This document shows, piece after piece, positions 12,267 through 51,080 of a DNA stretch of 64,000 bases. Under the pieces are notes generated by a model. The model was given only the letters and a program-made list of their open reading frames with translations, did no database searches and was not told where the DNA came from. The position numbers and the translations under genes were made by a program. The DNA is from Tomocerus qinae (lineage: Eukaryota > Arthropoda > Collembola > Entomobryomorpha > Tomoceridae), in contig CM034548.1 of NCBI GenBank assembly GCA_020055645.1, forward strand, positions 50,212,296-50,276,295. The letters run 5' to 3'. Position 1 is the first letter of the stretch, and the number at the start of each line of letters is the position of its first letter.

Positions 12267-12304
12267 TTTCTAAAGTTGCTAATTAAAGTCCTTTTATCAC
12301 CCGC

Positions 12305-12455
12305 GCAGCATTTGTTTTAATTTCGAAATATTGTAATTATTCTTGCGCCTGCGTAGTTACACCAAGTTCATCTTTTACATTTATACATTATCACGGAAAT
12401 TTTTTATTGCGCAACTCCACTTTAGAATTATCTTATGGGTATGATGACGAATGTC
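12305..12455 (-). repeat. Old dispersed repeat; empty-site copy of the satellite element's target
   Basis: 12318-12353 matches the complement of 38607-38645 (ttcttgcgcctgcgtagt), and 12354-12450 matches the complement of 29905-30002 (ttgcgcaactccacttta). The two halves are contiguous here but are separated by 8600 bp at the second locus. Confidence 0.75.
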
Positions 12456-12685
12456 AGTTCACTTGTATTAAAAATCATTCTTCATGTCAATTACTTAAAT
12501 CCACATACATCATCCCAATATCAGCTACTTTTGAAATTCTTAGAAGCGACACATTTAAGTGAATGGGAATGTAAGGTGTATTGTTGAACAAGATGATAAA
12601 TGAAAATGCATAATAGCCATGATTAAAAAGAAGCTACTAGTATAGTATGATGCTATGAAAGTAAATAAGGTGTTAATTTACTTAG

Positions 12686-25071: not shown

Positions 25072-28000
25072 CTGCAAGCAATCATTCGGCATAATTAGCA
25101 GGTTTAGAAATAAATCTGTCCCCCACAATTACATTGATTAGGTAATAATTGCAACAGGCCTCATCTAAATACCTGCATGATCGGGTGGGTGGAGAGTTCA
25201 GAATTCAGGCAATTCAGAGTATGCACATGCAGACATCTCAGACCAGGGCCGCAGCCAGAAAAAAATTTCGGGAGGGGCCCGACAAATAATAATTGAAAAA
25301 AGAAAAATTTTTGGGTTTTAAGGCAAAAATTCCTATCTTTTCTTCGATTTCGGGGGGGGGGCGGGCCCCCTGCCCCCCCCCTCGCTGCGGCCCTGTCTCA
25401 GACATGACACTTTTAAAATTTTAAAACATTATAACATAACATAACATCCCACGCCCCTTGATAAATGAAAATTTATTTATTTCAGTTTTCAAAAAATCAT
25501 TTTTGAAATAAGAAAAGAATGAAATGTCTGGTTGTTTAAGAACCGAATTGTTTCTCGTATTCAGTATGCTATGTACAAGTTACAAGAATGTATAGCTACT
25601 ATATTTGCGTATTATAGTACTTTATGATAGAGACGTTAAGATCAGTACTGTATTTAAAAGTCGATTTCGGAGGGCGCAAAATGACGTTAAACCCATATGT
25701 ATTAGGCATATTCACTTACACTAATTCTAACTAATCAATTTTGTGATTCCCAGAATGTCATTATGTTTTAGTTTTCACAACCCGATAGGCATAATCCTTT
25801 CAATAACAATATTAAATGATTTCAACTTGCCTTCGTTGAGGTTATTTGGAAGGAAGCCTTCCTGGCGAAGAGAGTTGAGTACCGAGGGAAGTAATTCCAA
25901 CAAAATGGACGTAGAAAACATGGGCTCTTCCAGTTCATTGGAAACCGAATCCCGATCATTGGCACTCAGTTTACTCTGCTCAGCCTCCAAATGCTTCCGA
26001 AATCGTTCCTACCATACATAAATCATTCATTTAGTCTAGATGTAATTAGTATCATGTACATCAGGCATTGTTGAAAATAGGACACAGGCTCCACTTTTAG
26101 ATTCGAAACAATTATTCTTCACGCCCACACCGTGTCACCCGCTATACTCTCTAATTATAGCACACGGAGTGTAGCGCTCGAACAATTACATTTATCTTTC
26201 AAGATTGACAGGCGACCAAGGTGAGGGCGGTCGGCTTCATATTTTAAAAGTAGAGGTTTGTGTCCAGTAGGGCGCATGAATTGTATATTATTTTCTAATA
26301 AAGGCGGAAAACTTTTGAAAGTTTTATTTTTGAAGAAAGGCATTTTCATGGTTTCTCATTTGGTGGGTCGGAGTCAGAGGTAGAGATTTTAAATTGATAG
26401 GTATAGGGACTTATGTTTTAGAAAACTGTCCGTATCTCCGGACACGGAGGAGGTACTTGGCATTTGGCAAGTGTATTATCTTGTATCATAATTTCAACAA
26501 TGTAAATGGCTAAATTTTAAATTTTCCCGCAAATGAAATAATAAGGACCTTAACAGTCAAATTGAAAAAGAACATGCGAAAGCATCCTTTCGCTCATCCC
26601 TTGCGAAGGTAGGATTCAATCCTTTGCTTTCGAGGAAATCGACAACGGAAATCGCTCCTTTCCTTTCACAAGCATTGATTTAGAGAGATCTCTCTCCAAC
26701 CTCTCCACCCGCGAATGAACTTAACCAATCACCATTCAGGTGGGAGGTGAGATTGAGGTGGGGTATTGTGATCGGGGCAAGTCCCATCTCAGTCTTGTGC
26801 TGTAATCAAGGTGATCTAGTATGCGCACAGTCAGTTATGAGACATGAGACCAAATTGAGACGTGTATTAGGTATGAAAGCATGGATCAAAGGAAGGTCAG
26901 CCGGATGCTTAAACTCTCACTCACATTTTGGATGTTGAGAGTACCGCACGTTTGATTGTCGATACTAAAATCGTGAGCAAAGCAAAAGTCTGTCCTTTCC
27001 GTGTCAGAATTGTTTATTGTCAATATGAGCCTAAGCGAACCGAAACCTGAAAATTTGCATACAGAACGCATTAACTGCGTTGTTATACGGTTTATTTAAT
27101 TGAAGGAAGGATTTTCAACTAACACGTAGCAGCGTAGCACAACAGTGACTTTAAAGATTTTACCATCGAGCAAGCATGTATCCATAAAACCAAGTTCCAT
27201 CTGGATGGAATTTAGCATATTTAGCAATGAACCAAATACATATATCAACTATATGAATAATCTATATGAAACACTAGTTGAATCCTAGCACATAAAGTGT
27301 GCTAGAAAATGTTGAAATCAGTAAATTTCTAGCGACTGCGCATTGGCCCGAATTTCATAGACCGTTGATTGGACTCCGTACTGATAGCCTAGTCCTTGCT
27401 CATTAATTACAAAATATTACCCTTACTCATTAATTACAAAATATTACCCTTACTCATTAATTACAAAATATTACCCTTACTCATTAATTACAAAATATTA
27501 CGGACATAGATACAAACATTTATTCAAGAATAGAGAAAGAATCCCATGCGCATGCCCCACTTTATGTTTATGTAGAGTAAAGATTGAGAAAACTACAATA
27601 AAAATCATATGATACGGCTAGCCCTAAACCGCAAAAAATTTCAATGCTCATATGAAGATGGGGTTTTAGTCACCGGTTTTAGTCATTACTCTACATAAAC
27701 GTAAAGTGGGACATGCGCATGGAATTCTTTCACCATTCTTGTATAAAGGTTTGTATATACGTCCGTAATATTTTGTAATTAATGAGGAAGGGTAATATTT
27801 TGTAACTTGACTTCCTAATACTGTAACTTAATTTCGGATACTAGTAGTTCGGCACTCAGTCCAAAAGCTTATATCTGTCGTTACATGTATACCTTGATTT
27901 TCATCGAATAAAAACTTACATTACTTACTTACACATCATATTTGCGACAACGTTTGCTTTGCGAACTCACTCTCATTGTCTTTCCTTTTCTTATAATATC

Positions 28001-31000
28001 TTAGGACCAGTTACGGTCTGGGTAAAGTGATCGCTAGTTCACCTATAAAATGGACTCATCCTTATCCGTTGCATTCATTTTAAAGATCTTTTTTGTTTAC
28101 ATCCATAAAGAGTTCAGGTTTTTACCCACTTCCCCCGTCAGGGATAAATTTAAGCAAATGTGGCAGTGCTACTGAATATGATGTTATTCGATCGAGCTGA
28201 AATGCACGTCTTTCTACGTTGTTCATGAAGGACTTGATTTTTGGTTTTTAAACACCCCCTCCCCCAGTCAGAGGTTACAACCGATTTCGTTCATTTTCAA
28301 ACTGCACACGAGTTTTGACTTTGGCATGAGTTAGATTCATTTCGCAGTCGTTAACAGTACTTAAAATAATTACATAAAGTTAAAGCAGATTTAATAAAAT
28401 AAAATGTAATTGTAATTAGCATTAATTTAATTGCACAAATTAAATGGTGACATTTTATAAAAACATTTGAAGAAAAAATTTCGACGTTTTTTGTGAATAT
28501 TTAAATAAATATTATCAGGTTTAAAAAAATAAATGTCACGGCTATAATTATAATTAATCACCTTCTCAGCGAGTATGCGTTGTTGCTGTTCGTGAAGGAG
28601 TCTCAATTCTCTCTGTTCGCGTTGGCGGGTTTGGTGGAACCGATTCTGCTGTTCCCTCAGAGCCACCAGCTCCTCTTCCTCCATCGTCTCCAAAAGACAC
28701 TGCAATTAAAACACTCAGTCTTCAAACAATGAAATAGTAACAAGAATATTTCAAGATTTTATCCCCCTTTGGTAGATCGTCTAAACAGGGAAATTGTGCT
28801 ATATATATAGATGTAGCCGGGAGTTTCGGCTGTGACCAGGTAAGTATGCACTCAATTGAACCAGATTTAACAACGTTTTTTTTAACAATTACAAAAATTA
28901 TATTTCTAAATATAAATTGTGCACCTGTTCCAAGATTTTGGCGACGAGTGTTTTTATGACAGGTTGTATTTCTTGTTCGAAGTCGAAAAGTTCTTCGGGG
29001 TTGACCTGGGTGGCGGCGTCGACGCCGAAGGTGGAGGAGACAGAGGTGGGGGAGGGGAAGGGGGCATTGTAGTGAGGCTCCGTCTGCACCACGGCGTCCA
29101 TCTCCTCCAGGTCAGTCTCTGGCTGCAGCTCCTCCAAGATTCCCTCCGTCTGGAGAGGGTAGTTTCGACGTCCCGGTAGCGGCGGAGGAGTCACCCGACT
29201 CGAAACTTTGTAGTTGCCCCCAACCCCTTTGCTTTTATTTCTCCCGTGGCTACGCCGCTTACGTCCTTTTCCCATCTCGTAACTCCCTTCTCCAGACTCC
29301 TTTAACGCAAAGCACAAATTCTTCAATTTTTAGCGGATACGAGTAAGGTTACCCGTCCTACGGACGGGGTTAATAACAGGGTGCTTGAAATTTCAAAAAA
29401 ATGAAAAGTAATTATTTTTAATTTAAAAACTAATTTAAAACAAACTTCAAAAATTTATTATTTACAAAAATGTTTTAAATTATTGTTTTAATTTTTAAAT
29501 AACAAACCCTTAAACTTAGGAATTTAACTCCATACCCGTGCGTGTACCAAGTTTAGAGATTTGGATTGATGTCTCCCACCCATGCTATGCTAATTTAATA
29601 ATATGAGTTGGAAATCTCCCACTTATGCTACACCTTTTAAGAATATGAGTAGGAAGTCTCCCACTTATGCTACACCTTTTAGGAATATGAGTTCGAAGTC
29701 CCCCACTTGTGCTACACCTTGTAGGAATATGAGTTCGAAGTCCCCCACTTATGCTAAACCATTTAGGAATATGGGTTGGAAGTCCACCACTTGTTTAGGA
29801 ATATGAGTTGGACGTCTCCCACTTATGCTACACCTTTAGTAAATTTTAATTGGAAGTCTCCCAATTATGGTTTTAGAAATAAGTTGGTCAAGCCGAGAGT
29901 CGGGAGTATAATAATCATCATACCCATAAGGTAATCTTAAAGTGGAGTTGCGCATTGAAAAATTTCTGTGATGATGTTTGAATGCAAAAGATGAACTTCG
30001 TGTATTATGGTCCCAAGCAATCTTTTTTTCTATTCAATTGGAAGAACAATGAATCATATGGTACTACACAAAAGGCTTGCTTCGACCAGAACTCGAAGCC
30101 AATAAAAACAACGTGTGAGGTCCAACTACACTACAACTCTGCGGGTACCATTTCATATCCGAAGCACGTTACGATTTGCCGACCGATGAATGCTACTTAC
30201 TTGATTACAGATTGAGCTCAATGACCATATGTTTCGCGATCTGACGTAAAAATCCTTACGACATTAACCTCTACCGCGGAAAAAAGCTAATACAAGGCGC
30301 GTCGCTCATTTTAACCATTCATATTATTAAGCATACGTACTCATCAACAACATAGTAAAGCAATAATGAATTCTCATCTGGAATGCTTTACTTTGTTTTA
30401 TAAATTAAAAATACTAAAAGTGTCCGTGGACTTAGACAAACAGTATCAAAGTATAAGCACAAAATGATTTTTGACAATTATAACTGCCTATATTTCACCC
30501 GATGGCGATAAGAGTAAAGTCGATAAATTACGAGTAAATTCGAATTTTTACTGGTAAATTCGATAATTTACTGGTAAATTCGAATTTTTACTAGTAAATT
30601 GGATAATTTACTGCTAAATTGGATAATTTACTGGTAAATTGGATAATTTACTGGTAAATTGGATAATTTACTGGTAAATTGGATAATTTACTGGTAAATT
30701 GGATAATTTACTGGTAAATTGGATAATTTACTGGTAAATTGGATAATTTACTGGTAAATTGGATAATTTACTGGTAAATTGGATAATTTACTGGTAAATT
30801 CGATAATTTACTGGTAAATTCATAATTTACTGGTAAATTCGATAATTTACTGGTAAATTCGATTTTTTACTGGTAAATTCGATAATTTACTGGTAAATTC
30901 GATAATTTACTGGTAAATTCGATAATTTACTGGTAAATTCGATAATTTACTGGTAAATTGGATAATTTACTGGTAAATTCGATAATTTACTGGTAAATTC

Positions 31001-34000
31001 GATAATTTACTGGTAAATTCGATAATTTACTGGTAAATTCGATAATTTACTTATAAATTCGATAATTTACTGGTAAATTCGATAATTTACTTATAAATTC
31101 GATAATTTACTGGTAAATTCGATAATTTACTGGTAAATTCATAATTTACTGGTAAATTCGATAATTTACTGGTAAATTCGATAATTTACTGGTAAATTCG
31201 ATAATTTACTGGTAAATTCGATAATTTACTGGTAAATTCGATAATTTACTGGTAAATTCGATAATTTACTGGTAAATTCGATTTTTTACTGGTAAATTCG
31301 ATAATTTACTGGTAAATTGGATAATTTACTGGTAAATTGGATAATTTACTGGTAAATTGGATAATTTACTGGTAAATTGGATAATTTACTGGTAAATTGG
31401 ATAATTTACTGGTAAATTGGATAATTTACTGGTAAATTGGATAATTTACTGGTAAATTGGATAATTTACTGGTAAATTCGATAATTTACTGGTAAATTCG
31501 ATAATTTACTGGTAAATTCGATAATTTACTGGTAAATTCGATAATTTACTGGTAAATTCGATAATTTACTGGTAAATTCGATAATTTACTGGTAAATTCG
31601 ATAATTTACTGGTAAATTCGATAATTTACTGGTAAATTCGATAATTTACTGGTAAATTCGATAATTTACTGGTAAATTCGATAATTTACTGGTAAATTCG
31701 ATAATTTACTGGTAAATTCGATAATTTACTGGTAAATTCGATAATTTACTGGTAAATTTGATTTTTTACTGGTAAATTCGATAATTTACTGGTAAATTCG
31801 ATAATTTACTGGTAAATTCGATAATTTACTGGTAAATTCGATAATTTACTGGTAAATTCGATTTTTTACTGGTAAATTCGATAATTTACTGGTAAATTCG
31901 ATAATTTACTTATAAATTCGATAATTTACTGGTAAATTCGATAATTTACTGGTAAATTCATAATTTACTGGTAAATTCGATAATTTACTGGTAAATTCGA
32001 TAATTTACTGGTAAATTCGATAATTTACTGGTAAATTCGATAATTTACTGGTAAATTCGATAATTTACTGGTAAATTCGATAATTTACTGGTAAATTGGA
32101 TAATTTACTGGTAAATTGGATAATTTACTGGTAAATTGGATAATTTACTGGTAAATTGGATAATTTACTGGTAAATTGGATAATTTACTGGTAAATTCGA
32201 TAATTTACTGGTAAATTCGATTTTTTACTGGTAAATTGGATAATTTACTGGTAAATTGGATAATTTACTGGTAAATTGGATAATTTACTGGTAAATTGGA
32301 TAATTTACTGGTAAATTGGATAATTTACTGGTAAATTGGATAATTTACTGGTAAATTGGATAATTTACTGGTAAATTGGATAATTTACTGGTAAATTGGA
32401 TAATTTACTGGTAAATTCGATAATTTACTGGTAAATTGGATAATTTACTGGTAAATTGGATAATTTACTGGTAAATTGGATAATTTACTGGTAAATTGGA
32501 TAATTTACTGGTAAATTGGATAATTTACTGGTAAATTGGATAATTTACTGGTAAATTGGATAATTTACTGGTAAATTCGATTTTTTGCTGGTAAATTGGA
32601 TAATTTACTGGTAAATTGGATAATTTACTGGTAAATTGGATAATTTACTGGTAAATTGGATAATTTACTGGTAAATTGGATAATTTACTGGTAAATTGGA
32701 TAATTTACTGGTAAATTGGATAATTTACTAGTAAATTCGATAATTTACTGGTAAATTCGATAATTTACTGGTAAATTCGATAATTTACTGGTAAATTCGA
32801 TAATTTACTGGTAAATTCGATAATTTACTGGTAAATTCGATAATTTACTGGTAAATTCGATAATTTACTGGTAAATTCGATAATTTACTGGTAAATTCGA
32901 TAATTTACTGGTAAATTCGATAATTTACTGGTAAATTCGATAATTTACTGGTAAATTCGATAATTTACTGGTAAATTTGATTTTTTACTGGTAAATTCGA
33001 TAATTTACTGGTAAATTCGATAATTTACTGGTAAATTCGATAATTTACTGGTAAATTCGATAATTTACTGGTAAATTCGATAATTTACTGGTAAATTCGA
33101 TTTTTTACTGGTAAATTCGATAATTTACTGGTAAATTCGATAATTTACTTATAAATTCGATAATTTACTGGTAAATTCGATAATTTACTGGTAAATTCAT
33201 AATTTACTGGTAAATTCGATAATTTACTGGTAAATTCGATAATTTACTGGTAAATTCGATAATTTACTGGTAAATTCGATAATTTACTGGTAAATTCGAT
33301 AATTTACTGGTAAATTCGATAATTTACTGGTAAATTGGATAATTTACTGGTAAATTGGATAATTTACTGGTAAATTGGATAATTTACTAGTAAATTCGAT
33401 AATTTACTGGTAAATTCGATAATTTACTGGTAAATTCGATAATTTACTGGTAAATTCGATAATTTACTGGTAAATTCGATAATTTACTGGTAAATTCGAT
33501 AATTTACTGGTAAATTCGATAATTTACTGGTAAATTCGATAATTTACTGGTAAATTCGATAATTTACTGGTAAATTCGATAATTTACTGGTAAATTCGAT
33601 AATTTACTGGTAAATTCGATAATTTACTGGTAAATTCGATAATTTACTGGTAAATTCGATAATTTACTGGTAAATTCGATAATTTACTGGTAAATTCGAT
33701 TTTTTACTGGTAAATTCGATAATTTACTGGTAAATTCGATAATTTACTGGTAAATTCGATAATTTACTGGTAAATTCGATAATTTACTGGTAAATTCGAT
33801 TTTTTACTGGTAAATTCGATAATTTACTGGTAAATTCATAATTTACTGGTAAATTCGATAATTTACTGGTAAATTCGATAATTTACTGGTAAATTCATAA
33901 TTTACTGGTAAATTCGATAATTTACTGGTAAATTCGATAATTTACTGGTAAATTCGATAATTTACTGGTAAATTCGATTTTTTACTGGTAAATTCGATTT

Positions 34001-37000
34001 TTTACTGGTAAATTCGATAATTTACTGGTAAATTCGATAATTTACTGGTAAATTCGATAATTTACTGGTAAATTGGATTATTTACTGGTAAATTGGATAA
34101 TTTACTGGTAAATTGGATAATTTACTGGTAAATTCGATAATTTACTGGTAAATTCGATAATTTACTGGTAAATTCGATAATTTACTGGTAAATTCGATAA
34201 TTTACTGGTAAATTCGATAATTTACTGGTAAATTCGATAATTTACTGGTAAATTCGATAATTTACTGGTAAATTCGATAATTTACTGGTAAATTCATAAT
34301 TTACTGGTAAATTCGATAATTTACTGGTAAATTCGATAATTTACTGGTAAATTCATAATTTACTGGTAAATTCGATAATTTACTGGTAAATTCGATAATT
34401 TACTGGTAAATTCATAATTTACTGGTAAATTCATAATTTACTGGTAAATTCGATAATTTACTGGTAAATTCGATTTTTTACTGGTAAATTCGATAATTTA
34501 CTGGTAAATTCGATAATTTACTGGTAAATTCGATAATTTACTGGTAAATTGGATAATTTACTGGTAAATTGGATAATTTACTGGTAAATTCGATAATTTA
34601 CTGGTAAATTCGATAATTTACTGGTAAATTCGATAATTTACTGGTAAATTCGATAATTTACTTATAAATTCGATAATTTACTGGTAAATTCGATAATTTA
34701 CTTATAAATTCGATAATTTACTGGTAAATTCGATAATTTACTGGTAAATTCATAATTTACTGGTAAATTCGATAATTTACTGGTAAATTCGATAATTTAC
34801 TGGTAAATTCGATAATTTACTGGTAAATTCGATAATTTACTGGTAAATTCGATTTTTTACTGGTAAATTCGATAATTTACTGGTAAATTGGATAATTTAC
34901 TGGTAAATTGGATAATTTACTGGTAAATTGGATAATTTACTGCAAATTGGATAATTTACTGGTAAATTGGATAATTTACTGGTAAATTGGATAATTTACT
35001 TGGTAAATTGGATAATTTACTGGTAAATTGGATAATTTACTGGTAAATTCGATAATTTACTGGTAAATTCGATAATTTACTGGTAAATTCGATAATTTAC
35101 TGGTAAATTCGATAATTTACTGGTAAATTCGATAATTTACTGGTAAATTCGATAATTTACTGGTAAATTCGATAATTTACTGGTAAATTCGATAATTTAC
35201 TGGTAAATTCGATAATTTACTGGTAAATTCGATAATTTACTGGTAAATTCGATAATTTACTGGTAAATTCGATAATTTACTGGTAAATTCGATAATTTAC
35301 TGGTAAATTCGATAATTTACTGGTAAATTTGATTTTTTACTGGTAAATTCGATAATTTACTGGTAAATTCGATAATTTACTGGTAAATTCGATAATTTAC
35401 TGGTAAATTCGATAATTTACTGGTAAATTCGATAATTTACTGGTAAATTCGATAATTTACTGGTAAATTCGATAATTTACTTATAAATTCGATAATTTAC
35501 TGGTAAATTCGATAATTTACTGGTAAATTCATAATTTACTGGTAAATTCGATAATTTACTGGTAAATTCGATAATTTACTGGTAAATTCGATAATTTACT
35601 GGTAAATTCGATAATTTACTGGTAAATTCGATAATTTACTGGTAAATTCGATAATTTACTGGTAAATTGGATAATTTACTGGTAAATTGGATAATTTACT
35701 GGTAAATTGGATAATTTACTGGTAAATTGGATAATTTACTGGTAAATTGGATAATTTACTGGTAAATTGATAATTTACTGGTAAATGATTTTTTACTGGT
35801 AAATTGGATAATTTACTGGTAAATTGGATAATTTACTGGTAAATTGGATAATTTACTGGTAAATTGGATAATTTACTGGTAAATTGGATAATTTACTGGT
35901 AAATTGGATAATTTACTGGTAAATTGGATAATTTACTGGTAAATTGGATAATTTACTGGTAAATTGGATAATTTACTGGTAAATTGGATAATTTACTGGT
36001 AAATTGGATAATTTACTGGTAAATTGGATAATTTACTGGTAAATTGGATAATTTACTGGTAAATTGGATAATTTACTGGTAAATTGGATAATTTACTGGT
36101 AAATTGGATAATTTACTGGTAAATTCGATAATTTACTGGTAAATTCGATTTTTTACTGGTAAATTGGATAATTTACTGGTAAATTGGATAATTTACTGGT
36201 AAATTGGATAATTTACTGGTAAATTGGATAATTTACTGGTAAATTCGATAATTTACTGGTAAATTCATAATTTACTGGTAAATTCGATAATTTACCAGTA
36301 AATTCGATAATTTACTGGTAAATTCGATAATTTACTGGTAAATTCGATAATTTACTGGTAAATTCGATAATTTACTGGTAAATTCGATAATTTACTGGTA
36401 AATTCGATAATTTACTGGTAAATTCGATAATTTACTGGTAAATTCGATAATTTACTGGTAAATTCGATAATTTACTGGTAAATTCGATAATTTACTGGTA
36501 AATTCGATAATTTACTGGTAAATTCGATAATTTAATGGTAAATTTGATAATTTTACTGGTAAATTCGATAATTTACTGGTAAATTCGATAATTTACTGGT
36601 AAATTCGATAATTTACTGGTAAATTCGATAATTTACTGGTAAATTCGATTTTTTACTGGTAAATTCGATAATTTACTGGTAAATTCGATAATTTACTGGT
36701 AAATTCGATAATTTACTGGTAAATTCGATAATTTACTGGTAAATTCATAATTTACTGGTAAATTCGATAATTTACTGGTAAATTCGATAATTTACTGGTA
36801 AATTCGATAATTTACTGGTAAATTCGATAATTTACTGGTAAATTCGATAATTTACTGGTAAATTCGATAATTTACTGGTAAATTGGATAATTTACTGGTA
36901 AATTGGATAATTTACTGGTAAATTGGATAATTTACTAGTAAATTCGATAATTTACTGGTAAATTCGATAATTTACTGGTAAATTCGATAATTTACTGGTA

Positions 37001-40000
37001 AATTCGATAATTTACTGGTAAATTCGATAATTTACTGGTAAATTCGATAATTTACTGGTAAATTCGATAATTTACTGGTAAATTCGATAATTTACTGGTA
37101 AATTCGATAATTTACTGGTAAATTCGATAATTTACTGGTAAATTCGATAATTTACTGGTAAATTCGATAATTTACTGGTAAATTCGATAATTTACTGGTA
37201 AATTCGATAATTTACTGGTAAATTCGATAATTTACTGGTAAATTCGATTTTTTACTGGTAAATTCGATAATTTACTGGTAAATTCGATAATTTACTGGTA
37301 AATTCGATAATTTACTGGTAAATTCGATAATTTACTGGTAAATTCGATTTTTTACTGGTAAATTCGATAATTTACTGGTAAATTCATAATTTACTGGTAA
37401 ATTCGATAATTTACTGGTAAATTCGATAATTTACTGGTAAATTCATAATTTACTGGTAAATTCGATAATTTACTGGTAAATTCGATAATTTACTGGTAAA
37501 TTCGATAATTTACTGGTAAATTCGATTTTTTACTGGTAAATTCGATTTTTTACTGGTAAATTCGATAATTTACTGGTAAATTCGATAATTTACTGGTAAA
37601 TTCGATAATTTACTGGTAAATTGGATTATTTACTGGTAAATTGGATAATTTACTGGTAAATTCGATAATTTACTGGTAAATTCGATAATTTACTGGTAAA
37701 TTCGATAATTTACTGGTAAATTCGATAATTTACTGGTAAATTCGATAATTTACTGGTAAATTCGATAATTTACTGGTAAATTCGATAATTTACTGGTAAA
37801 TTCGATAATTTACTGGTAAATTCGATAATTTACTGGTAAATTCATAATTTACTGGTAAATTCGATAATTTACTGGTAAATTCGATAATTTACTGGTAAAT
37901 TCATAATTTACTGGTAAATTCGATAATTTACTGGTAAATTCGATAATTTACTGGTAAATTCATAATTTACTGGTAAATTCGATAATTTACTGGTAAATTC
38001 GATAATTTACTGGTAAATTTGATAATTACGAGTAAATTCGAAAGTTTACGAGTAAATTCGAAAGTTTACGAGTAAATTCGAAAGTTTACGATTAAATTCC
38101 AAACTTTACGATTAAATTCAAAAATTTACGATTAAATTCCAAAATTAACGAGTAAATTCAAAAATTTACGAGTAAATTCAAAAATTTACGATTAAATTCA
38201 AAAATTTACGATTAAATTCCAAAATTTACGATTAAATTCCAAAATTTACGATTAAATTCCAAAATTTACGATTAAATTCCAAAATTTACGATTAAATTCC
38301 AAAATTTACGAGTAAATTCAAAAATTTACGATTAAATTCCAAAATTTACGAGTACAGTATACAGTCATCACATTTGGCTATTCAGTCATTACATCATTTG
38401 CATTCAGCTCAATATGTTAAGTACATACTATTCATCAGTCGGCAAATAGTAGTGGGCTTCGCGTATGAAATCGTACCCGCAGTGTGGTAGTCTCATAGTA
38501 CAGTTCTCGGCTTCGAGTTCTGGTCGAAGCAAGCCTTTTGTGTAGTACCATATGATTCATTGTTCTTCCAATTGAATAGAAAAAAAGATTGCTTGGGACC
38601 ATAATAACTACGCAGGCGCAAGAATAATTACCATAATATTTCGAGTCGGTCGTAACATTACAACGCCACTGAGCCAAATTCAGGCTCTCAAATAATAACT
38701 CACACACTTTACAATAATCTTATTGATAGGAATACTAAAAAACGGTTCAATGCATTGTACCATACGTCGGTTAAATTTTAAGGAGGACTTCTTGTGTACT
38801 ATGGAACAAGCACGTATGCAGAACTGAGTTTCGGAAGGGGCTAGATGAAAATTTTTGGCATTTTTTTGAAAGAAATGAGTCAAAAATGGCCTAAATTGGC
38901 AAATAATCGCGCGGAGCGCGAAATTTTTTGCTATTTTGAGAAAAATATTCTCTTTTTCTTGGATTTCGGGGGGGGCGGAGGCTTCAGCCCGAAAAGCCCA
39001 TCCCTAAATACGTCCTTGCTGTAGAAAATGATTCAAAATGGTTTGGATGGGATGTTTAAATTTTTTGGATGTTCTTGGTGATGGGCTGGATGGGATGTTG
39101 ATATTTTCTTGGATGTTTGGAGATGGGATGGAAGGGATTGGATGTCCCATCTTTTGGAGTGGATGGGATGGGATGGGATGTTTACCCACAACTTACATCT
39201 ATGCTGTGTACACATACGGCGATTACCTGATAAGGAAAAAAATCCTATTTCAAAAGAAGTAGATAGTTTAGTCAACTTTTGCAACCAAAATTCTTTACCC
39301 ATACTATTTGCTGGGGATGTCAATGCCCACAACACAGTATGGGGTAGCACAAATACTAATGCACGAGGCGAAGCACTACTTGATTTCATAGTAGGATCTA
39401 ACCTTGAAATACTTAATCAAGGACATAAACCAACTTTTCGTGATGGTATGGGCAGAGAGGAGGTTCTAGACATCACGGTTTGTTCTGAAAACCTTTTACA
39501 ACATATCCACAACTGGAGGGTTGAGAATGATATCACACTCTCAGATCATATGTATATTTCTTATGAATTAGAAATCGAAAGCCCTAAGCAAATTCAATTT
39601 AGAAATCCAAAAAAAGCGGACTGGTCCTTATATAGCAGGACGGTCAAGAAAAACCTAACAAAAATATCTTGCACTCCAATTGCAACTGTTGATCAACTTG
39701 ATGAACAGGTCAATAGGGTCAATAAAATTATCATTGACGCCTTTCATAAAGCATGTCCACTGAAGACCATAAGGAGTGGGGGCAAACTTTCTCCCTGGTG
39801 GAATCAGGAATTAACCAGTCTTAGAAAAAAATTAAAGGTAGCTCTTAGGAAGTACAAATCCAAGAGAACTTTAGAATCAAAAGCAGAGTTAAGAAACATC
39901 CGCATCCTTTTTAACAGCACTTTGCGTAAAGCAAAAAGGGATTCATGGAGAACCTTTTGCAACGAAATTGAAGAACTCAACAAGCATCCAAGCTTGCGAA

Positions 40001-43000
40001 AATTCTCGTGAAAGACCGAAGCAGGACACTAGGTCCACTAGAAACTGCTGATGGTAGCTATACTTCGAATATGGATGAATCATTAACATACCTTCTGAAA
40101 ATTCATTTTCCCAATGATCACAAACTGATTTATACTATACCAGACTATAACATCTGTGCTGATAGCTCTATTGCAGAGTTAATCACTTTAGAGAAAGTCC
40201 AAAGGGCTATTAGCTCTTTTGGGCCTTACAAAGCTGGTAGCTGCGATGGCATTCTCCCAGTCATGCTTCAGATGGCTAGGAAAGAATTAACTCCATATTT
40301 GTACAACATTCTTAAAGCCAGTCTCGATTTTGGGTATATACCTAAAGCTTGGAGACAAACTAAAGTAATCTTCATACCAAAGCCAGCCAAGAGTAGCTAT
40401 CAAAAAGCTAACTCGTGGCGGCCAATATCACTTATCTCTACTTGTATGAAAATACTTGAACGTCTTATTGACTGGAGTATCAAAACTCCAGAGCTTGAAA
40501 ACAAAATGAAGGACGCAGGACAGTTTGCATATTTACGTGGTATTTCCACGGATGCTGCTCTTCATCAATATATTGCTCGCACGGAATGTGCTCTCAAAAG
40601 TAATCAAATGGCTCTTGGCATTTTCCTCGATATCGAGGGGGCATTTAGTCATGCCACTTTCGAATCAATTCATTTAGCTTTAGAAAGAGAAAGAATAAAT
40701 GTAGCCATCATTCGTTGGATAGAACGAATGTTAAGGGATCGTACCGTAAACGTAACAGTTGGATCCGCTATTCAAAGTATTAAAGTTGAAAGAGGGTGCC
40801 CTCAAGGGGGGGTACTATCGCCTTTATTATGGAATCTAGTCATCCATGAGCTCTTAGAGAAACTGTCCAACGTCAGTTCTATCTATAGACAAGCATTTGC
40901 AGATGATCTTGGCCTTCTTCAGGTTGGCATAGACGAAGATACGATGAGAGCTTTAGGGCAAAGAGCCCTTAACATCATCGAAAATTGGTGCAGTCAGCGG
41001 GATCTTTCCATTCACCCTGACAAAATCGAAATTATTATATTTCATACACGGCATAAAAAACCCAAAATGAAACCTCTCAGATTAAGAGGTAAAAATATTG
41101 CATTTGTCAACAATGTGCGGTACCTAGGTGTTCATTTGGATAGTGGACTGACTTGGAGTACCCACTGTAATGTTAAAAGTAGCAAGGCTAAAGCAGCTCT
41201 TATGCAATGTAAAAGAGCTGTTGGCCAAACGTGGGGTCTTTCACCAAAAATCACCTTGTGGCTATATACAGCTGTAGTCAGACCAACCTTATCTTACGCA
41301 GCTTGTTCGTGGTTAACGGCTGTTCACAACAAAACTAGAATATCAACTTTGGCTAGTGTTCAACGACTAGCCTGTTTAATGACTACTAGTGCAATGCATA
41401 GTTCACCCTCTGCAGCGTTAGAATGTATAGTAGGTATTGAGCCTATAGATATATTCCTTACTAAGACCGCTATTTCAACAGCACATCGATTGCGTTGTAC
41501 TGGAAAATGGCTGCCCTGGTATGGGAGAGGGAGCCTTAAAAGATTAACGCATGTTGATCTAATTGCAAATCTTTTGAAACAATTGCCTGAGTTGGAATTT
41601 CCAATGGACTCAACTCCCTTCACTGCCCTCATGCGTAAAAATTTTACTGTACTTGACACAGAAAAACCTGTCATTCTTCAACCTTCAAACCAGAGACTGG
41701 TCTGTTATACAGACGGGTCGAAAATGGACAATTTAGTAGGATGTGCTGCTATAATTACTAGCACTGATAGTCATATCATCATACAACAATGTTTAGGACA
41801 ATATGCAACTGTGTTTCAAGCGGAATTGATAGCTATACTTATGGTCATAACTAAAATCACAGATCTGGACTGGAGAGATGAAGTAGTCATCTATAGCGAC
41901 TCTCTCAGTTCTTTAAAAGCCCTTGAGGCTAATTACACGGACTCGGCCTTGATACTTGAATGTTTCAGAGCCTTGCACAAACTTTCAGAAAGTGCATCCG
42001 TTACTCTACAATGGGTTCCCAGTCATACTGGTATTATAGGAAACGAAGAGGCTGATTTATTAGCCAAAGAATCCACAAAAATGGCAGTTTTTGGTCCTGA
42101 ACCAATACTGCCATTTTCTTCGCAATGCGCAAAAACTGTTATCTCCAAAGCTTTTAACAAATTAAATATTCAAAATTGGAAAAGACGTTCAGATTGTAAA
42201 ACTACAAAATTATTTTTACCTTCACCCTCATATACCAAAAGCAAATATTTCACAAGTTTGAGTAGAAGAACGCTCAGGGTCTTCACTCATTTAATTACTG
42301 GTTTCTCCTCCTTGGCCAAGCATCAGAATCTATTGGGGAATCATTCGTCTCCGCTCTGCCCATTGTGCGCACTAAGCGTCGAGACGTCGGTCCACCATGT
42401 GGCTGAATGCCCAGCTTTGAGCGAGTTGAGATTCAAACACCTGAGTAAGTTTCTCATTCACGTGGATGAGTTACCGGGGTTGCCCTTGTCGTCTCTGCTT
42501 TCATTTTGTATGTCTGCAGGACGAATGAGTGGCTTCTCCGAACAGTAAAGCTGTTCAGGGAGCAACTGCAAGTAAGTCCTCGCGGCTTGAGCGGTAGTGT
42601 GTCTTTACTCTTCAATAGTATTGATCATACTCTCCCACTAACACACACACACACATACGGCGGCGTACAACTCTCACAGGTTAGCGCACCGCTAGCGACT
42701 AAGAGAGGCTCAAGTCCTTTGCATAGGGACACAATTTTTTCTTTGTCGTCACTAGTGGTAGAAGCCTAAAATCACTTTGTATCATATTATTGGGGCACAC
42801 TGAAATTAAATTATTGATCAGCAACGCCTGTTCCTGTTCAAGCGCGGATAATTCGAAAACCATTGACAGTCTCACCAGTTTGATAGTTTTAAAAACCATA
42901 GAAGTATAGACAGTAGTATTACAACAATTTAAAAAATATTTCTCCCCTGCTTTTGCCAGGTTTATTATTGTATTAATTAAACTCATTCAGACACAATCAT

Positions 43001-46000: not shown

Positions 46001-49000
46001 GCTGTGTTTTACTAACTTCAAGGATACCAACTCTCCTCAAGCGGGGATTTGGGGGCGGCAGCCCCCACTAAAAAATAAAATAATTTTATTACATATATAA
46101 TATATTAATAATTTTGCGAAAAAATCAAAATAAAGTTGTAGCTCAAATAACATAGTGTAATAACATGTATAGTTTTCCATATATGTAAAATTTACATAAC
46201 CAAGGACTCTAGTTCTGTACATTGTCGTGCGCTGTATTACTGTATTGTAACATCCATAAATAATTTGATAATCTATAATATAATATTATAGATTATAATA
46301 ATATAGACTATAATAATATTCATAATCTGATTAAGCCTTTTGTAATTCGTAGCTATATGATAGTTATAACCAGCTATACCAAGAAAAACAATAAAATAAA
46401 AAATATAACAGGTGGAAATAAAACATATAACCTGGAAAAATATACGGTGAGAATGCCAGACAAACTCGAAAACAAGATATATTTAGATACCAATATATAA
46501 TTAAAGCTCTTAATTTTACAATTTTCTTCAAAAAAATCTCCCCGTGCGTTTACAGTTAATTTCCTTGCAACAACTATACAACTTACCAAAAACACTAGAT
46601 ACACACTAGTATCAACTAGATTTTACGTGCTAATAACTCCAAATATAAATTTTATGGAAATGTAAATATTGAAATGAGAAGATCCTGTAATACTTCAAGA
46701 CAAAAAACTTTTTGTATAAAAAGCAGAACATTCTTATTTCACAGTTACTTTGTACATTGTTGCGATTTCTTCACACTAACAACCTTTTTTATTGCATTTT
46801 GGGCATTTAGTTGACAATTGTAGCGCCGTCATATCTAAATATATTTTACTGCTAGATGTTGTTAATATGGAAAGATTTATACTCTTAATTGTTGCTTAAT
46901 TACTATGGATACAACAATTTAACCTGGTTTTGATTTTCAGAAAATAACTTGAGTCGTTACAATTACTGAGCGAATACTATTTTGTATGTACGATTGCAAA
47001 GGTATTCCCATAGAACACTAAATTGCAACTTTGACTGGTGTTCCCTTATTCTAAAATATTTTCCACCCCCGCTTCAGGAGTTAATTCAATCGCTATTGTG
47101 TTTTCCCTATAAAATGCTTTGTTTTTCAAAGAAGTTAGTTGCATATATGTAGTAAGTAGTATCTATATCTGACATGTTGAGATGAGCTGAAAAAAATACT
47201 TGACAACCATGAGGCAAAGCCCGCAAAAAATTTAATTCTGCATAGTACATCCGTTTCAAATTCAATTTATTACCATGGATTCATGGATATTAACGGGCCA
47301 GTATGTTCATTGCTATGACAGTTTCAATAGAACTCATGTCTAAAACTGTTTTAACTGCATCGCCGGCTTTGCCTACCAATCAAAATGCAGTAAAATTTCT
47401 TAACACAGAGAGTGTTAAGAATGTCTATTGTTAGTTGCAAGTGAATTACCAGTAAACGCACGGGGAGAGTTTTTTTTGAAGAAAATTGTAAAATTAAAAG
47501 CTTTAATTATATATTGGTATCTAAATATATCTTGTTTTCGAGTTTTTCTGGCATTGTCACAGTATATTTTTCCAGGTTTTTACCTGTTATATTTTAGCCG
47601 GCTGACAATGATTTTGACCAGCCAGCCGGCTAAAATGGCTGAAATAGCTAGTGGCCAAAATGGCCAAAAATCATGATTTTTAAATTTCGCGCCAAACCAA
47701 GGATGATTTTCTCAGTTCACATAGCCCTATTTTTGGCCATTTTGGCCAATTTAGCCACTGGCTAACAAAGAATTTAAACCAGACGGCCGGCCATTTAGCC
47801 AGCCATTTTAGCCGACCAGCCGGCTGGTCACTGAACTCTGGATTTAGTAGTGTCCGGCTAAAACTGGAACTCAGCCTTACACATTTATAACCTTAATGCT
47901 AAAAGAATTTTAAGGGTGAGTGATTTTTGAAAGAATGTGATTCCAAGTAATCGGCTGAACGTAAAGTAATAGCCATTTCATAATCTATCAGGATGTTTTA
48001 AGCTGAGTATGAAAGCAATTATTTTTAAAACATCGGAAATTTTGTTGTAAGTTGATGTTGAAGTAAACTGTCAAAAATATTTAAATTATCCAAAGTTTAA
48101 CTAATTGATTTTGAAAAAAAATTGGTCTGCTGTAAAATTGTGGTTCAGATTTAAGAAAAGTGTTGAGAGAAATATGATACATACATGTTGAAAGAAATAA
48201 AAATACTATGGAAGCCTGCTGGTGTATGCATTTTGTTAGATAGAGACATTAGGTTTGCATCTCTGATACTGAGACTGGGATCTGGCGGTAACAAAGTCTG
48301 AAAAAATTTCGCCCCAGAAATGTCTTCGCTAAAAATATTCAATGTTTTTTGTCACCGATTAGTATCTTTCCATCAAACCCTACAGGTCAAAGAATCAATG
48401 TTGTTGTCTACCAGAGGTGGGCAAATATATTGTCGGCCGGACCTGGGCTGCAGCCGTTTTTTTTTTTGACCACTCATCAACCCGGCCTGGGCCGAATATG
48501 TACGTTCAAAAATTTTAAAAATTTCGGCTGGCCTGAGGCCGGCCTATATCAAAAATAATTTCCTAGCGGCCGGCCTGATACTACGTATAAAAAAGCGCGG
48601 CCGGTCTACGGTCGGCCTGATACTACGTATAAAAAAGCGCGGCCGGTCTACGGTCGGCCTGATACTATGTATACAACAACGCGGCCGGCCTCCGGCCGGC
48701 CTACAAGCCCTATTTAAAAATTTCGGCCGGCCCATATGTTGTTGATATCAGGCTACTACTATATATCTACTATTCACGTGAGTATATATATCTACTATTC
48801 ACGTGAGTATATATATCTACTATTCACGTGAGTATATATATCTACTATTCACGTGAGTATATATATCTACTATTCACGTGAGTATATATATCTACTAATC
48901 ACGTGAGTATATATATCTACTATTCACGTGAGTATATATATCTACTAATCACGTGAGTATATATATCTACTATTCACGTGAGTATATATATCTACTAATC

Positions 49001-51080
49001 ACGTGAGTATATATATCTACTATTCACGTGATTATATATATCTACTAATCACGTGAGTATATATATCTACTATTCACGTGAGTATATATATCTACTAATC
49101 ACGTGAGAATATATATCTACTATTCACGTGAGTATATATATCTACTATTCACGTGAGAATATATATCTACTATTCACGTGAGTATATATATCTACTATTC
49201 ACGTGAGTATATATATCTACTATTCACGTGAGTATATATATCTACTAATCACGTGAGTATATATATCTACTATTCACGTGAGTATATATATCTACTATTC
49301 ACGTGAGTATATATATCTACTATTCACGTGAGTATATATATCTACTAATCACGTGAGTATATATATCTACTAATCACGTGAGTATATATATCCACTAATC
49401 ACGTGAGTATATATATCTACTATTCACGTGAGTATATTTATCTACTAATCACGTGAGTATATATATCTACTAATCACGTGAGTATATTTATCTACTATTC
49501 ACGTGAGTATATTTATCTACTAATCACGTGAGTATATATATCTACTAATCACGTGAGTATATATATCTACTATTCACGTGAGTATATATATCTACTATTC
49601 ACGTGAGTATATATATCTACTAATCACGTGAGTATATATATCTACTATTCACGTGAGTATATATATCTACTATTCACGTGAGTATATATATCTACTATTC
49701 ACGTGAGTATATATATCTACTAATCACGTGAGTATATATATCTACTATTCACGTGAGTATATATATCTACTAATCACGTGAGTATATATATCTACTATTC
49801 ACGTGAGTATATATATCTACTAATCACGTGAGTATATATATCTACTATTCACGTGAGTATATATATCTACTATTCACGTGAGTATATATATCTACTATTC
49901 ACGTGAGTATATATATCTACTAATCACGTGAGTATGGTGATATTTCGATAAAATCTGCCGGCCTTCAGCCGGGCTGATACTATCATTTTTATAGTTCGGC
50001 CGGCCTGTTATCATGTGCATTAGATATCGGCCGGCCTGGATAGGCAGATGTAAAATTTCGACCGGCCTTTAGTCGAAAAATGTGCAGGCTGGGCCGCGCC
50101 CACCTCTGTTGTCTACCGCAGGCCAGTATAATTTGATTGTCCTTAATCGATTCATTTAGTATCTAGTAAAAGCTACAATTTTACTTTGTGGGAAATAATT
50201 GGAAATTTAAGAAATACATCTTCTGCGATGCGATGAAGAAATTAATGCGGCAACTTCAGGTCTATATCCCATGATTTCCCAACTTTGTCATTTTCCACTT
50301 AATTTTAATGCCCACATTTTGCAGTTGTAAATAGAAAATTTCCATTTTAGTGGTATTTCCCAGTCGAAACCTTGAAAAGCAAACTTTTAGGCCTTTATAA
50401 AATGCCGTAACGTAAATGACAACAGATGGGTACTTTATTATGGTTTCACTCTCACGTTAATCTCTTTGTATTCGAAAGACAATGGATCATATGTTGCAAT
50501 ACAAAAGGTTTAACTTCAGCGCAAACTTCGAGTCGAGCATATCAACTTGGGAGGTCCATTGTAATGAAACATATGATCCATTGTCTTTCGAATTAACGTG
50601 ACGTAAGTGATTAACGTGAGAGTGAAACAGTTATAACGACAACGACGTGTGGAGACTTTAAGCTGAATATGAAATCTGTTGAATGTACACAAACAGTAAT
50701 ATAAGTAGCCTTTTCAGTTTCAAAATCCATTCCATGGGAAACTTTGGATATAAGTTGGAAATTTTGGGGAAAAGCTAGAAAATTTCAAAATAAAAATATT
50801 TCGAAGCCTGGTCTGGTGATAAGTGATAATGAAAAAGCGAGTACTGGGATTTTGTGGAGTCTGCTGGTATATGTCGTGTGATGATGGAGCACTGGTGCCT
50901 CGGGACGAGTCCGACGGGTCTGGGTCGACTGGAGAATGTGAAGATGCTCCTCTCCACCATCAGATCAAATTTGGAGGGCAGGAAGCGTCCGCGGGTGACG
51001 GTTGTGATGAACGGCGGCCTCTCGCACGAGAAGCGGTTGGAGGGATGGCTGTGGGCGAGGGTTGGACCGGGAATGGCCAT
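24992..51080 (-). CDS. RSPH3: Radial spoke head protein 3 homolog (RSPH3)
   Basis: RSPH3 anchors radial spokes to axonemal microtubules and is an A-kinase anchoring protein in motile cilia and flagella (family knowledge). Six minus-strand exons are proposed: 50845-51080, 43086-43176, 28925-29299, 28562-28699, 25831-26008 and 24992-25071. Phases 2, 0, 0, 0 and 1 match at every junction, giving about 365 residues. Recognisable parts in order are SIFTFSSRPRPVGLVP, NVMWDPHVHRGTT (family N-I-M-Y-D-R-R-V-x-R-G-N-T), VTPPPLPGRRNYPLQTE and GILEEL. These are followed by GVDAATQV, EELFDFEQEIQPVIKTLV, LLETMEEEELVALREQQNR and LLELLPSVLNSLRQEGFL. Human RSPH3 continues after this point with a further conserved segment that is not seen here. 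Only the last exon and the exact start Met are uncertain. Introns 1 and 2 (7.7 and 13.8 kb) are packed with mobile DNA. Confidence 0.88.
25244..25395. mobile_element. hAT MITE, 152 bp, perfect 8-bp target duplication
   Basis: Ends cagggccgcagc and gctgcggccctg, flanked on both sides by tctcagac (25236-25243, 25396-25403). The interior is C/G-run rich. It lies in the last RSPH3 intron. Confidence 0.9.
25831..26008 (-). CDS. RSPH3: RSPH3 exon 5
   Basis: Minus-strand acceptor tatgtatggtag. It starts in phase 0 with ERFRKHLEAEQSKL and includes the conserved LLELLPSVLNSLRQEGF. The donor is proposed as GAAG/gcaagt, a GC-AG intron of the usual GC consensus; no nearby GT donor keeps the frame as well. 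Confidence 0.75.
26009..28561. other. RSPH3 intron 4
   Basis: Apart from the hairpin element at 27405-27812, nothing identifiable. A GC-richer patch at 26740-26940 has no matching splice sites. Confidence 0.5.
27405..27812. mobile_element. Hairpin element with tandem-repeated arm
   Basis: The left arm, including catgcgcatgcccca and tttatgtagagtaaa, is mirrored by 27690-27812. The left end carries a 27-bp unit (attaattacaaaatattac) four times; the right end has about one copy. Confidence 0.75.
28562..28699 (-). CDS. RSPH3: RSPH3 exon 4
   Basis: Acceptor ttttaattgcag, donor GAGAAG/gtgatt, 46 codons, phase 0 at both ends. It encodes CLLETMEEEELVALREQQN and a Q/R/E-rich coiled-coil stretch (RELRLLHEQQQRILAEK). 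With the end of exon 3 it forms the amphipathic helix that binds PKA RII-type docking domains in RSPH3 proteins. Confidence 0.92.
28925..29299 (-). CDS. RSPH3: RSPH3 exon 3
   Basis: Acceptor ctttgcgttaaag, donor GAACAG/gtgcac, 125 codons, phase 0. It opens with a basic segment (MGKGRKRRSHGRNKSKG), then VTPPPLPGRRNYPLQTE, VVQTEPHY, GVDAATQVNPEELFDFEQ and IQPVIKTLVAKILEQ, the core of the Radial_spoke_3 family. It is noticeably GC-richer than its surroundings. Confidence 0.92.
29573..29880. repeat. 42-bp minisatellite in RSPH3 intron 2
   Basis: About seven tandem units of 42 bp with the cores aatatgagttggaagtctcc and cacttatgctacacctttta; later units are shortened. The 67-residue ORF here is the repeat translated. 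Confidence 0.85.
30520..38020. repeat. 20-bp satellite array, about 375 units
   Basis: Tandem units gataatttactggtaaatt plus c or g. Each contains the near-palindrome aatttactggtaaatt (7-bp arms around TG). There are two main unit types (ttcgataa and ttggataa), found in blocks. Marker variants are gattttttactgg, acttataaatt, acttagtaaatt-like changes and 19-bp units lacking one base (attcataattt). One unit near 36290 has the centre inverted (taccagta). Confidence 0.97.
38026..38352. repeat. Diverged edge of the satellite array
   Basis: About 17 units of about 20 bp with aaaatttacgattaaattcc or acgagtaaattc. They are related to the main unit but lack its palindromic centre. A few such units also sit at the left edge (30517-30540). 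Confidence 0.85.
39030..39182. repeat. ggatgggat-type simple repeat
   Basis: Irregular gatgggatg/ggatgtt units directly before the 5' break of the LINE. Confidence 0.7.
39196..40011 (+). pseudogene. LINE endonuclease C-terminal part
   Basis: An APE-type endonuclease fragment. FAGDVNAHNTVWGS carries the catalytic Asp-Asn, EVLDITVCSENLL follows, and TLSDHMYISYELE holds the terminal Asp-His. It then enters the linker before RT (SPWWNQELTSLRKKLKVALR). The upstream third of the domain is absent and the frame breaks near 40008, so it cannot make a full protein. Confidence 0.85.
40008..42548 (+). pseudogene. LINE reverse transcriptase and RNase H
   Basis: An 846-residue open frame, one step out of frame with the endonuclease part. 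RT motifs in order are KVIFIPKPAKSSY, NSWRPISLISTCMKILERL, LGIFLDIEGAFSH, GCPQGGVLSPLLWNLV and the catalytic QAFADDLGLL. RNase H runs from VCYTDGSKM through FQAELIAILMV and IYSDSLSSLKAL to WVPSHTGIIGNEEADLLAK, with all four acidic residues. The tail has CPLCALSVETSVHHVAECP (C-C-H-C). The RT and RNase H appear intact, so the copy is fairly young although 5'-truncated and frameshifted. Confidence 0.93.
43086..43176 (-). CDS. RSPH3: RSPH3 exon 2
   Basis: Minus-strand acceptor tttgttcttgcag, donor AACCC/gtgaga. It starts by completing the Gln codon split from exon 1 and ends in phase 0. It encodes PRGVHDYFNVMWDPHVHRGT, matching the short conserved N-terminal motif of RSPH3. Confidence 0.85.
43592..43912. 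mobile_element. Hairpin MITE, about 320 bp
   Basis: The outer ends cttaagggtagttaatag and ttattaaccacccttaag are inverted. An inner pair also mirrors (cttgtggttcca and tggaaccacaag). There is no coding capacity. It lies in RSPH3 intron 1. Confidence 0.7.
44880..47130. repeat. Dispersed repeat block, inverted copy of 60.3-61.8 kb
   Basis: Matches 60300-61800 in inverted order over several segments: caattgactatgactatgat complement near 45045, the tttacgctttgctcgc region at 45985, ggggatttgggggcggcagc at 46042, and the interior at 46800-47130. The 45 kb copy holds an extra hAT MITE. No ORF is evident. Confidence 0.75.
45551..45752. mobile_element. hAT MITE, 202 bp, perfect 8-bp target duplication
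   Basis: Ends caaggccgtat and atacggtactg, flanked on both sides by atcccagt (45543-45550, 45753-45760). It is inserted in the dispersed repeat block, dating it after that block. Confidence 0.85.
46402..47594. mobile_element. Inverted-repeat element, 1.2 kb
   Basis: The left terminal region (aacctggaaaaatatacgg, gataccaatatataattaaa, ctccccgtgcgtttac) is mirrored by 47430-47594. The same ends bound 60150-60848. It carries no transposase. Confidence 0.75.
47597..47835. mobile_element. Hairpin MITE rich in ggcc/agccggct
   Basis: agccagccggctaaaatggc and ctagtggccaaaatggcc on the left are mirrored on the right by ggccattttggccaat and ccattttagccgaccagcc. It sits directly after the 1.2-kb inverted-repeat element. 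Confidence 0.65.
48412..50108. mobile_element. hAT element carrying an E-box minisatellite
   Basis: Ends cagaggtgggc and gcccacctctg, flanked on both sides by ttgtctac (48404-48411, 50109-50116). The terminal sequence is the classical hAT form. Subterminal repeats contain cggccggcctgatactac. The centre is a 25-bp tandem array. No transposase is present. It lies in RSPH3 intron 1. Confidence 0.93.
48760..49937. repeat. 25-bp minisatellite, 47 units with CACGTG
   Basis: CACGTG ends at 48780 in the first unit and 49930 in the last, exactly 46 periods of 25 bp. The unit is gtatatatatctactattca plus cgtga. One position varies between t and a (ctattcacgtg / ctaatcacgtg) in an irregular order. Every unit keeps the palindromic E-box core CACGTG and a TATATATA stretch. 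Confidence 0.97.
50443..50628. mobile_element. Hairpin MITE related to the satellite element's ends
   Basis: Ends gtttcactctcacgttaat and attaacgtgagagtgaaac. The interior pair gacaatggatcatatg and catatgatccattgtc is inverted. The interior resembles the 30.0-kb terminal repeat (aacaatgaatcatatggta, caaaaggctt, aactcgaag). Confidence 0.7.
50845..51080 (-). CDS. RSPH3: RSPH3 first coding exon
   Basis: The minus-strand frame is open from Met at 51080 (MAIPGPTLAHSHPSNRF) and contains SIFTFSSRPRPVGLVPRHQ, the typical N-terminal RSPH3 motif. It ends at TCCCA/gtactc in phase 2, completed by the A at the start of exon 2. In-frame Met codons further upstream, to 51167, are possible starts; Met at 51080 is chosen as the one closest to the motif with +4 G. 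The region is GC-rich. Confidence 0.75.

Follow-up and report, generated by a model that had tools for sequence, protein, structure and literature searches.

The stretch of DNA analyzed here, hereafter the window, comprises 64,000 nucleotides of the springtail Tomocerus qinae (GenBank assembly GCA_020055645.1, contig CM034548.1, positions 50,212,296 to 50,276,295 of the forward strand), and contains at 30005-38604 an element of 8,600 bp with inverted ends and a long array of a 20-bp repeat. The element begins with a left terminal inverted repeat (TIR) of 96 bp (30005-30100, beginning TTATGGTCCC), followed by a left inner unique part (30101-30513), the array (30514-38349) and a right inner unique part (38350-38508), all read on the forward strand; the right TIR of 96 bp (38509-38604), on the reverse strand, matches the left arm perfectly. 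A TA borders the element on each side (30003-30004 and 38605-38606), and the perfect inverted match is 98 bp long once the flanking TA is counted. Further inward the arms diverge, with 86 matches, 22 mismatches and 15 gap columns at positions 97-219 against 96/96 in the outer part (Fisher p = 2.9e-7); the similarity score of the inner arms is 115, and the maximum of 200 shuffles was 52. The right inner part resembles the segment 30130-30223 at about 79%, an old subterminal similarity.

TA is its own reverse complement, and the inverted repeat alone is therefore no proof of a target duplication; a count of TA-flanked 14-bp inverted repeats was uninformative for the same reason. The proof is supplied by an empty site. 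The flanks of the element, once joined, gave a single contiguous alignment with the reverse complement of 12280-12500, and among 750 joins tried three tied for best, all of them retaining exactly one TA, the single TA of the empty site. Against the reverse complement of 12323-12447 the joined flanks are 89.06% identical over 128 columns (11 mismatches, one gap, E = 3.5e-44); the window's second-best match, with the flanks themselves set aside, is far behind, at an E of 0.077. Since the empty copy lies on the reverse strand, inverted relative to the filled one, and is 11 mismatches away, it is another copy of a target repeat of about 130 bp, a paralogous empty site, and not the other allele. 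The original prediction, made from the letters of the window, had proposed perfect 96-bp inverted repeats bordered by TA and an unoccupied copy of the target repeat at 12.3 kb, and had suggested aligning the 12305-12455 region with the joined flanks; both structures were found as proposed, and the flanks form one contiguous repeat. Eight open reading frames (ORFs) of 30-90 amino acids overlap the element, none of them longer, and the array is rich in stop codons. Judged by ORF length, the element is without a transposase of its own. A scan of the satellite and the TIR against viral contigs gave no match.

The array, 7.8 kb long, contains 393 copies of a 20-bp unit according to Tandem Repeats Finder (TRF; 392.9 copies, 96% matches), with the core unit GTAAATTCGATAATTTACTG and its variants. 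It fills 91% of the 8,600 bp, which bears out the description of the element as almost entirely a 20-bp satellite. Division of the array on its start motif gave 381 units of 25 types, and a run of 47 units, with 17 changes of unit type within it (9 in the best of 50 shuffles), is repeated exactly at an offset of 3,548. This repetition belongs to a tandem duplication of two blocks on the forward strand (30803-34413 and its duplicate 34414-37980), which align with 3532 matches and 15 mismatches over 3,547 aligned bases and with 84 gap columns; eight control alignments with shuffled unit order had 106-126 mismatches. Smaller duplications with offsets of 458, 819 and 1,239 bases and a divergence of about 2-4% lie inside the blocks. 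The recurring and nested blocks indicate that the array, as assembled, grew by nested block duplications. The block doubling is present in the assembly, on which the true length of the array rests. Units of a different type, ending in TTTACGA, make up the right edge of the array (38020-38349, forward strand).

The host assembly (334 Mb, 115 contigs) was searched for the ends of the element. Forty ends were scored of 156 candidates, and all 40 had 99-100% identity. They represent 23 loci including the window, the other 22 of which were fetched, and at 22 of the 23 the ends form simple pairs. At the odd locus, L017/L031, one copy with an end cut by two bases is joined to a second, left-truncated copy; the latter holds a retrotransposon-like ORF. 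All 22 paired copies have TA on both sides, and the content between their ends, which the original prediction had proposed to list, includes the 20-bp repeat in every case, with a minimum of 2 units and no copy without it. The paired copies are 573-8,600 bp long (median 1,460), and 2-71 units were counted in the other 21 against 382 in the window copy, the longest among those examined, in part owing to its doubled 3.6-kb block. The element had been called unusual; this holds for the length of the window copy, but not for the carriage of the repeat, which is common to all paired copies. Additional sequence is present inside L010, L011 and L027.

The two arms are identical within 17 of the 22 paired copies, whereas in the control, which set the left arm of one copy against the right arm of another, 162 of 462 pairs were identical. 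The change T20A is found on both arms in seven of the 22 copies and T4G on both arms of L027, and the arms of L052, a copy found through its satellite, have six changes in common over 58 bases compared. Such covariation suggests founder copies whose ends were made alike, presumably by gene conversion. Weighing against homogenisation of the arms, five of the 22 copies have unequal arms, and the older copies L053, L054 and L055 show 5-7 mismatches between theirs. The right inner part is 76-100% identical in 19 other copies compared and at least 96.9% identical in 18 (L010 and L019 matched in part), and the inner sequences keep the same sides of the array across the copies compared. Of the fetched copies, only L029, L030 and L052-L055 showed all or some of the segment 30423-30513. 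The kind of unit found at the right edge of the window array, without the core unit, occurs in 17 of the 21 other paired copies, and the order of unit types is preserved in the copies that carry the core unit. The ends of L012, L019 and L023, which hold 2-4 units, are no less intact than those of other copies.

The search was also made in the reverse direction, from the satellite to the ends. The genome contains 345 exact dimers of the core unit, of which 166 lie in the window, and 327 exact dimers of the edge unit; reversed-pattern controls gave 0 for both. Satellite loci were taken among the matches listed, namely the first 100 of 345 and the first 100 of 327 (200 of 672), all on contig C1, with 166 of the other 472 being the window's own. 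Sixteen loci were obtained among these matches, and all 16 carry family ends; ten were already known by their ends, and the six new ones are L052, L053, L054, L068, L069 and L070. Fifteen of the 16, including the rearranged L017/L031, have two complete or partial ends; in L070 one end was seen and the fetched stretch stops before the other. Other sequence interrupts one end of L052, and one end of L068 is short of its last 9 bases. L055, located through the inner-left junction (6 places), has both ends. Among the six further two-ended copies (L052-L055, L068 and L069), four have TA on both sides. The ends thus lead to the repeat and the repeat leads to the ends, which argues for carriage of the satellite by a transposon. 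The two points on which the prediction of a satellite inside a precisely bounded mobile element had been left to stand or fall, contiguity of the flanks and association of mapped satellite copies with the ends, both came out in its favour.

The core unit, ending in TTTACTG, is present in five of the 22 paired copies and in L017, and this prompted the idea of an origin in the window copy or a recent sublineage. L052-L054, found by the satellite pattern alone, carry it together with more diverged ends (85-95%, in longer matched pieces); the idea was therefore withdrawn, and the core unit looks old in the family. L010 (3,090 bp) was considered as the holder of an autonomous transposase, and its extra sequence of about 2 kb between repeated CATAGTACA was read instead as a nested insertion, probably at about 690-2050 with CATAGTACA on both sides; the ORFs within it may, by their appearance, be P-element/THAP-like. 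In L017, an open frame of 1,700 codons at 2677-7779, presumably a BEL-type retrotransposon by its appearance, is inserted in the 20-bp array and splits it. At 6705-8862 of L029, two 21-bp arrays face each other in opposite orientation, forming a candidate satellite-bearing inverted element.

Comparison of copies outside the array gives an impression of their age. The non-array part of the window copy is 4 substitutions (three left, one right) from the consensus of the copies compared, a count made with L012 and L021 out on the left and L010 out on the right, and with nine of the window's twelve left differences, at the array start, dropped as misalignment. Relative to L013, the copies L014, L015 and L016 have 3, 1 and 2 differences in 673 non-array positions and the window copy has 5 (in this distance table L010, L012 and L023 were left out, and the row of L029, misaligned and with a shorter left inner part, was unused); the arrays of L013, L014, L015 and L016 hold 32, 57, 36 and 29 units. 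Aligned through the array, L015 and L016 have 5 mismatches and 141 gap columns, indicating that the order of the array was inherited and that units were then gained or lost. The length of the array changes faster than the rest of the element. Shared array order is also the basis on which movement of intact arrays may be proposed in the TA family.

A second satellite carrier lies in the window at 48412-50108 (forward strand), with CAGAGGTGGGC ends, an 8-bp duplication TTGTCTAC and an internal array of 47 copies of a 25-bp unit (48760-49935, by TRF). Target duplications of 8 bp and CAG...CTG ends are hallmarks of hAT transposons, and by duplication and ends this element and its relatives may be classed as hAT-like. 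A genome search with its left part returned 44 matching pieces. The 12 loci returned, including the window's own, all have arrays of 21-28-bp units with CACGTG; at nine of them identical 8-bp flanks border the CAGAGG/CCTCTG ends, and none were found in the fetched stretch of the other three. The other loci are about 79% like the window copy over the left 254 bases, so that the latter, although a relative, does not belong to the near-identical set. Among the near-identical copies (L056 was left out of the pairwise comparison), L062 and L066 are identical at 1,564 of 1,564 positions and have different 8-bp duplications, L058 and L059 have 1 difference in 1,334, and L058 and L060 differ by 1 base and 274 gap columns. 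The identity of L062 and L066 at different target sites shows directly that an array moved intact, and the gaps between L058 and L060 show fast change in length. In a self-comparison of the window, the end regions of the TA element showed no match to the hAT-like element. At about 5360-7284 of L054, a hAT-like relative (72% over query positions 3-240) and 23-bp and 25-bp arrays adjoin a copy of the TA element; no ends flanked by matching 8-bp duplications were found in that place.

The 20-bp unit had been described as near-palindromic, with single strands able to fold into chains of hairpins. As a palindrome the core unit is ordinary, since its identity of 14/20 to its own reverse complement is equalled by 20% of 3,000 shuffled units, but its folding in tandem stands out: per unit, three tandem core units have a predicted energy of -4.6 kcal/mol, whereas 100 shuffled units averaged -1.5 and one of them did as well. 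Folding of 240 bases of the array gave z-scores of -12.6 and -11.2 for the two strands, values flattered by a control that also destroys the tandem repetition. When six copies were folded in tandem, units a and g reached -4.0, nearly the core level, and the t unit -2.2. Five of the 11 units folded are unremarkable (edge unit F and units of 27, 30, 32 and 42 bp); folding stands out in the 25-bp hAT-like unit (3-4% of shuffles as good) and in a 31-bp unit (2%). Hairpins are possible in such arrays, chains of hairpins from single strands are a hypothesis, and a hairpin-forming unit may, speculatively, favour slippage.

With high confidence, the window element can be regarded as a cut-and-paste DNA transposon that is non-autonomous, duplicates a TA target and belongs to a multi-copy family in which the 20-bp array is a standing cargo of changing length. 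Because the element codes for nothing evident, we assume that its 96-bp ends are recognised by a transposase whose gene lies at another place in the genome. Transposition would carry ends and array together and so scatter the satellite; at each site the array would then quickly gain and lose units by slippage and unequal exchange, the remainder staying nearly constant. In the window, nested block duplications, the last being a tandem doubling of about 3.6 kb, would have enlarged the array to 7.8 kb. We infer both the exchange mechanism and the placing of the doubling later than this insertion. Several points weigh against the account as a whole. The transposase matched to the 96-bp ends is an assumed partner; sampling of the ends, with 40 scored of 156 candidates, favours young copies; L055 and L068 lack the TA on one side, where the end is altered or cut; the doubled block may stem from faulty assembly; and no pair of TA-family copies with identical arrays at different sites was seen among the 16 of 22 compared (the window copy, L010, L011, L012, L027 and L030 were left out).

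Assembly error would mean that either two alleles of one array or a repeat first collapsed and then re-expanded had been placed in tandem, with a true element of about 5 kb or less. The 15 differences in 3547 and 84 gap columns between the 3.6-kb blocks are much like what two alleles might show, and the other 21 paired copies hold just 2-71 units; against this, the older nested duplications within the blocks indicate that block growth is habitual in the window array, and the ends and flanks are not duplicated along with the block, so that this explanation seems rather unlikely. Somewhat more room, while still doubtful, should be given to an element that arrived at its present length instead of growing after insertion: in the hAT-like family, which shares this genome, arrays have moved intact, and the few substitutions in the non-array part make the insertion look young, but no other copy among the 21 exceeds 71 units, and in the model of Scalvenzi and Pollet, as cited in the available part of PMC7492417, the number of repeats is inverse to mobility.

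The remaining alternatives concern the relation of the satellite to its carrier. A free array invaded or flanked by two terminal repeats, with a satellite spreading independently of the transposon, is hardly credible and largely refuted: paired ends enclose the repeat throughout, the inner sequences lie on constant sides, the unit order is constant where the core unit is present, and every satellite locus among the matches listed carries ends, although arrays beyond those matches may differ. The array may alternatively be functional, for example as a binding site for transposase or a host protein or as a replication site, and be selected for mobility and not be a passenger. The absence of any paired copy wholly without the repeat, the same design in the hAT-like family, and core units in both arrays that fold better than 96-99% of shuffled units would agree with such a role, but descent from one founder explains the presence of the repeat, long arrays are not needed to keep the ends of L012, L019 and L023 intact, and nearly half of the units folded (5/11) are unremarkable; a function of this kind is improbable.

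By its structure, the element has both the TIRs and the TA duplication of a cut-and-paste transposon. Foldback transposons of the Tetris type have tandem repeats inside long TIRs; here the array occupies the centre, with a different inner part on either side. To our knowledge, Helitron-like elements have no terminal inverted repeats and no target duplication, and the 96-bp TIR and TA duplication separate the window element from Helitrons and Helentrons. Its ends, TTATGG, are presumably unlike those of Tc1. Miniature inverted-repeat transposable elements (MITEs) are short, about 400 bp according to the available text of PMC9659126, with many homogeneous copies; many near-identical copies exist here too, but of 573-8600 bp.

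MITE-like elements with a satellite inside have been described before. miDNA4 of Xenopus tropicalis is a Tc1/mariner-type MITE with an internal satellite (PMC12628747 and PMC9659126, crediting Scalvenzi and Pollet 2014); like the window element, it is described as non-autonomous, with inverted ends, an internal repeat in one to many copies and an array growing inside the element, and it differs in host and in unit (a comparison by description and not by sequence), the unit here being 20 bp and the copy 8.6 kb. The Tc1/mariner-type label belongs to miDNA4 and is not carried over. Tetris of Drosophila virilis, a foldback transposon, is likewise reported as non-autonomous with tandem repeats varying in number between copies and alleles, and its TIR-220 arrays, reaching 66 copies of about 220 bp, put long carrier-linked arrays on record (PMC4079207); in the account given there, its repeats lie in the TIRs and its target duplication is 8-10 bp, unlike the one central array and TA here. 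In the oyster Crassostrea gigas, satellite-like arrays are spread by non-autonomous Cg_HINE elements of the Helentron type (PMC7492417; Helentron-like elements also in PMC5139131), with monomers of about 140-180 bp and a longest array of 29 monomers in the portion available. The hAT-like elements of the same genome share with the TA element a design of short ends that match each other and an inner array whose length varies, as well as copies that are nearly identical, and differ in their 8-bp target duplication, CAGAGGTGGGC ends and another unit. By title, the open-access literature on satellite carriage offered nothing closer than the miDNA4, Tetris and oyster Helentron works, and that on springtail satellite DNA and transposable elements no work on such carriers. 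The novelty lies in finding so complete a series within one assembly, and a second carrier in the same 64 kb.

Several other elements were observed in the window. The region 1-4962 has inverted arms (35-1000 and 3965-4930) that are 100% complementary, each with 8.7 copies of a 30-bp repeat, and is foldback-like; its left end may fall outside the window, and a palindromic element at 1599-2610 (arms 99%) appears seated in a 32-33-bp repeat between its arms. A 152-bp element at 25244-25395, with CAGGGCCGCAG ends and an 8-bp duplication TCTCAGAC, is perhaps a small hAT-like MITE, and a palindromic element at 27394-27805 has four 27-bp tandem copies in its left arm and about one and a half in its right. 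The arms of a short inverted-repeat element at 50435-50636 have ACAATGRATCATATG in common with the ends of the 8,600-bp element, a possible shared transposase site. Beside the latter lies a long interspersed nuclear element (39109-42548) whose two adjoining frames encode endonuclease, reverse transcriptase and RNase H domains; among the organism-named matches of the reverse transcriptase ORF, the best come from two springtails, Folsomia candida and Orchesella dallaii (identity of 38-40%), moths and a seisonid ranking after springtails, and higher matches reach 44% over 99% of the query.

The origin and dispersal of satellites is an old question that is usually argued from remnants. A single assembly displays side by side an unoccupied target site, young copies that hardly differ except in their arrays of 2 to 382 units, hAT-like copies that moved with the array intact, and one array with a 3.6-kb doubling. 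A more tentative and rather unlikely reading is that satellite carriage is convergent and recurrent, unrelated families (TA, hAT-like and perhaps the long-arm element at 1-4962) each having gained hairpin-prone arrays as cargo whose length mutates faster than its sequence, with occasional runaway to kilobase satellites and with the foldable unit driving expansion in transposon-associated repair; if this were true, the arrays would be more than passengers. With the series of stages in this assembly, rates of array change per insertion become measurable, and the two carrier families permit their comparison.

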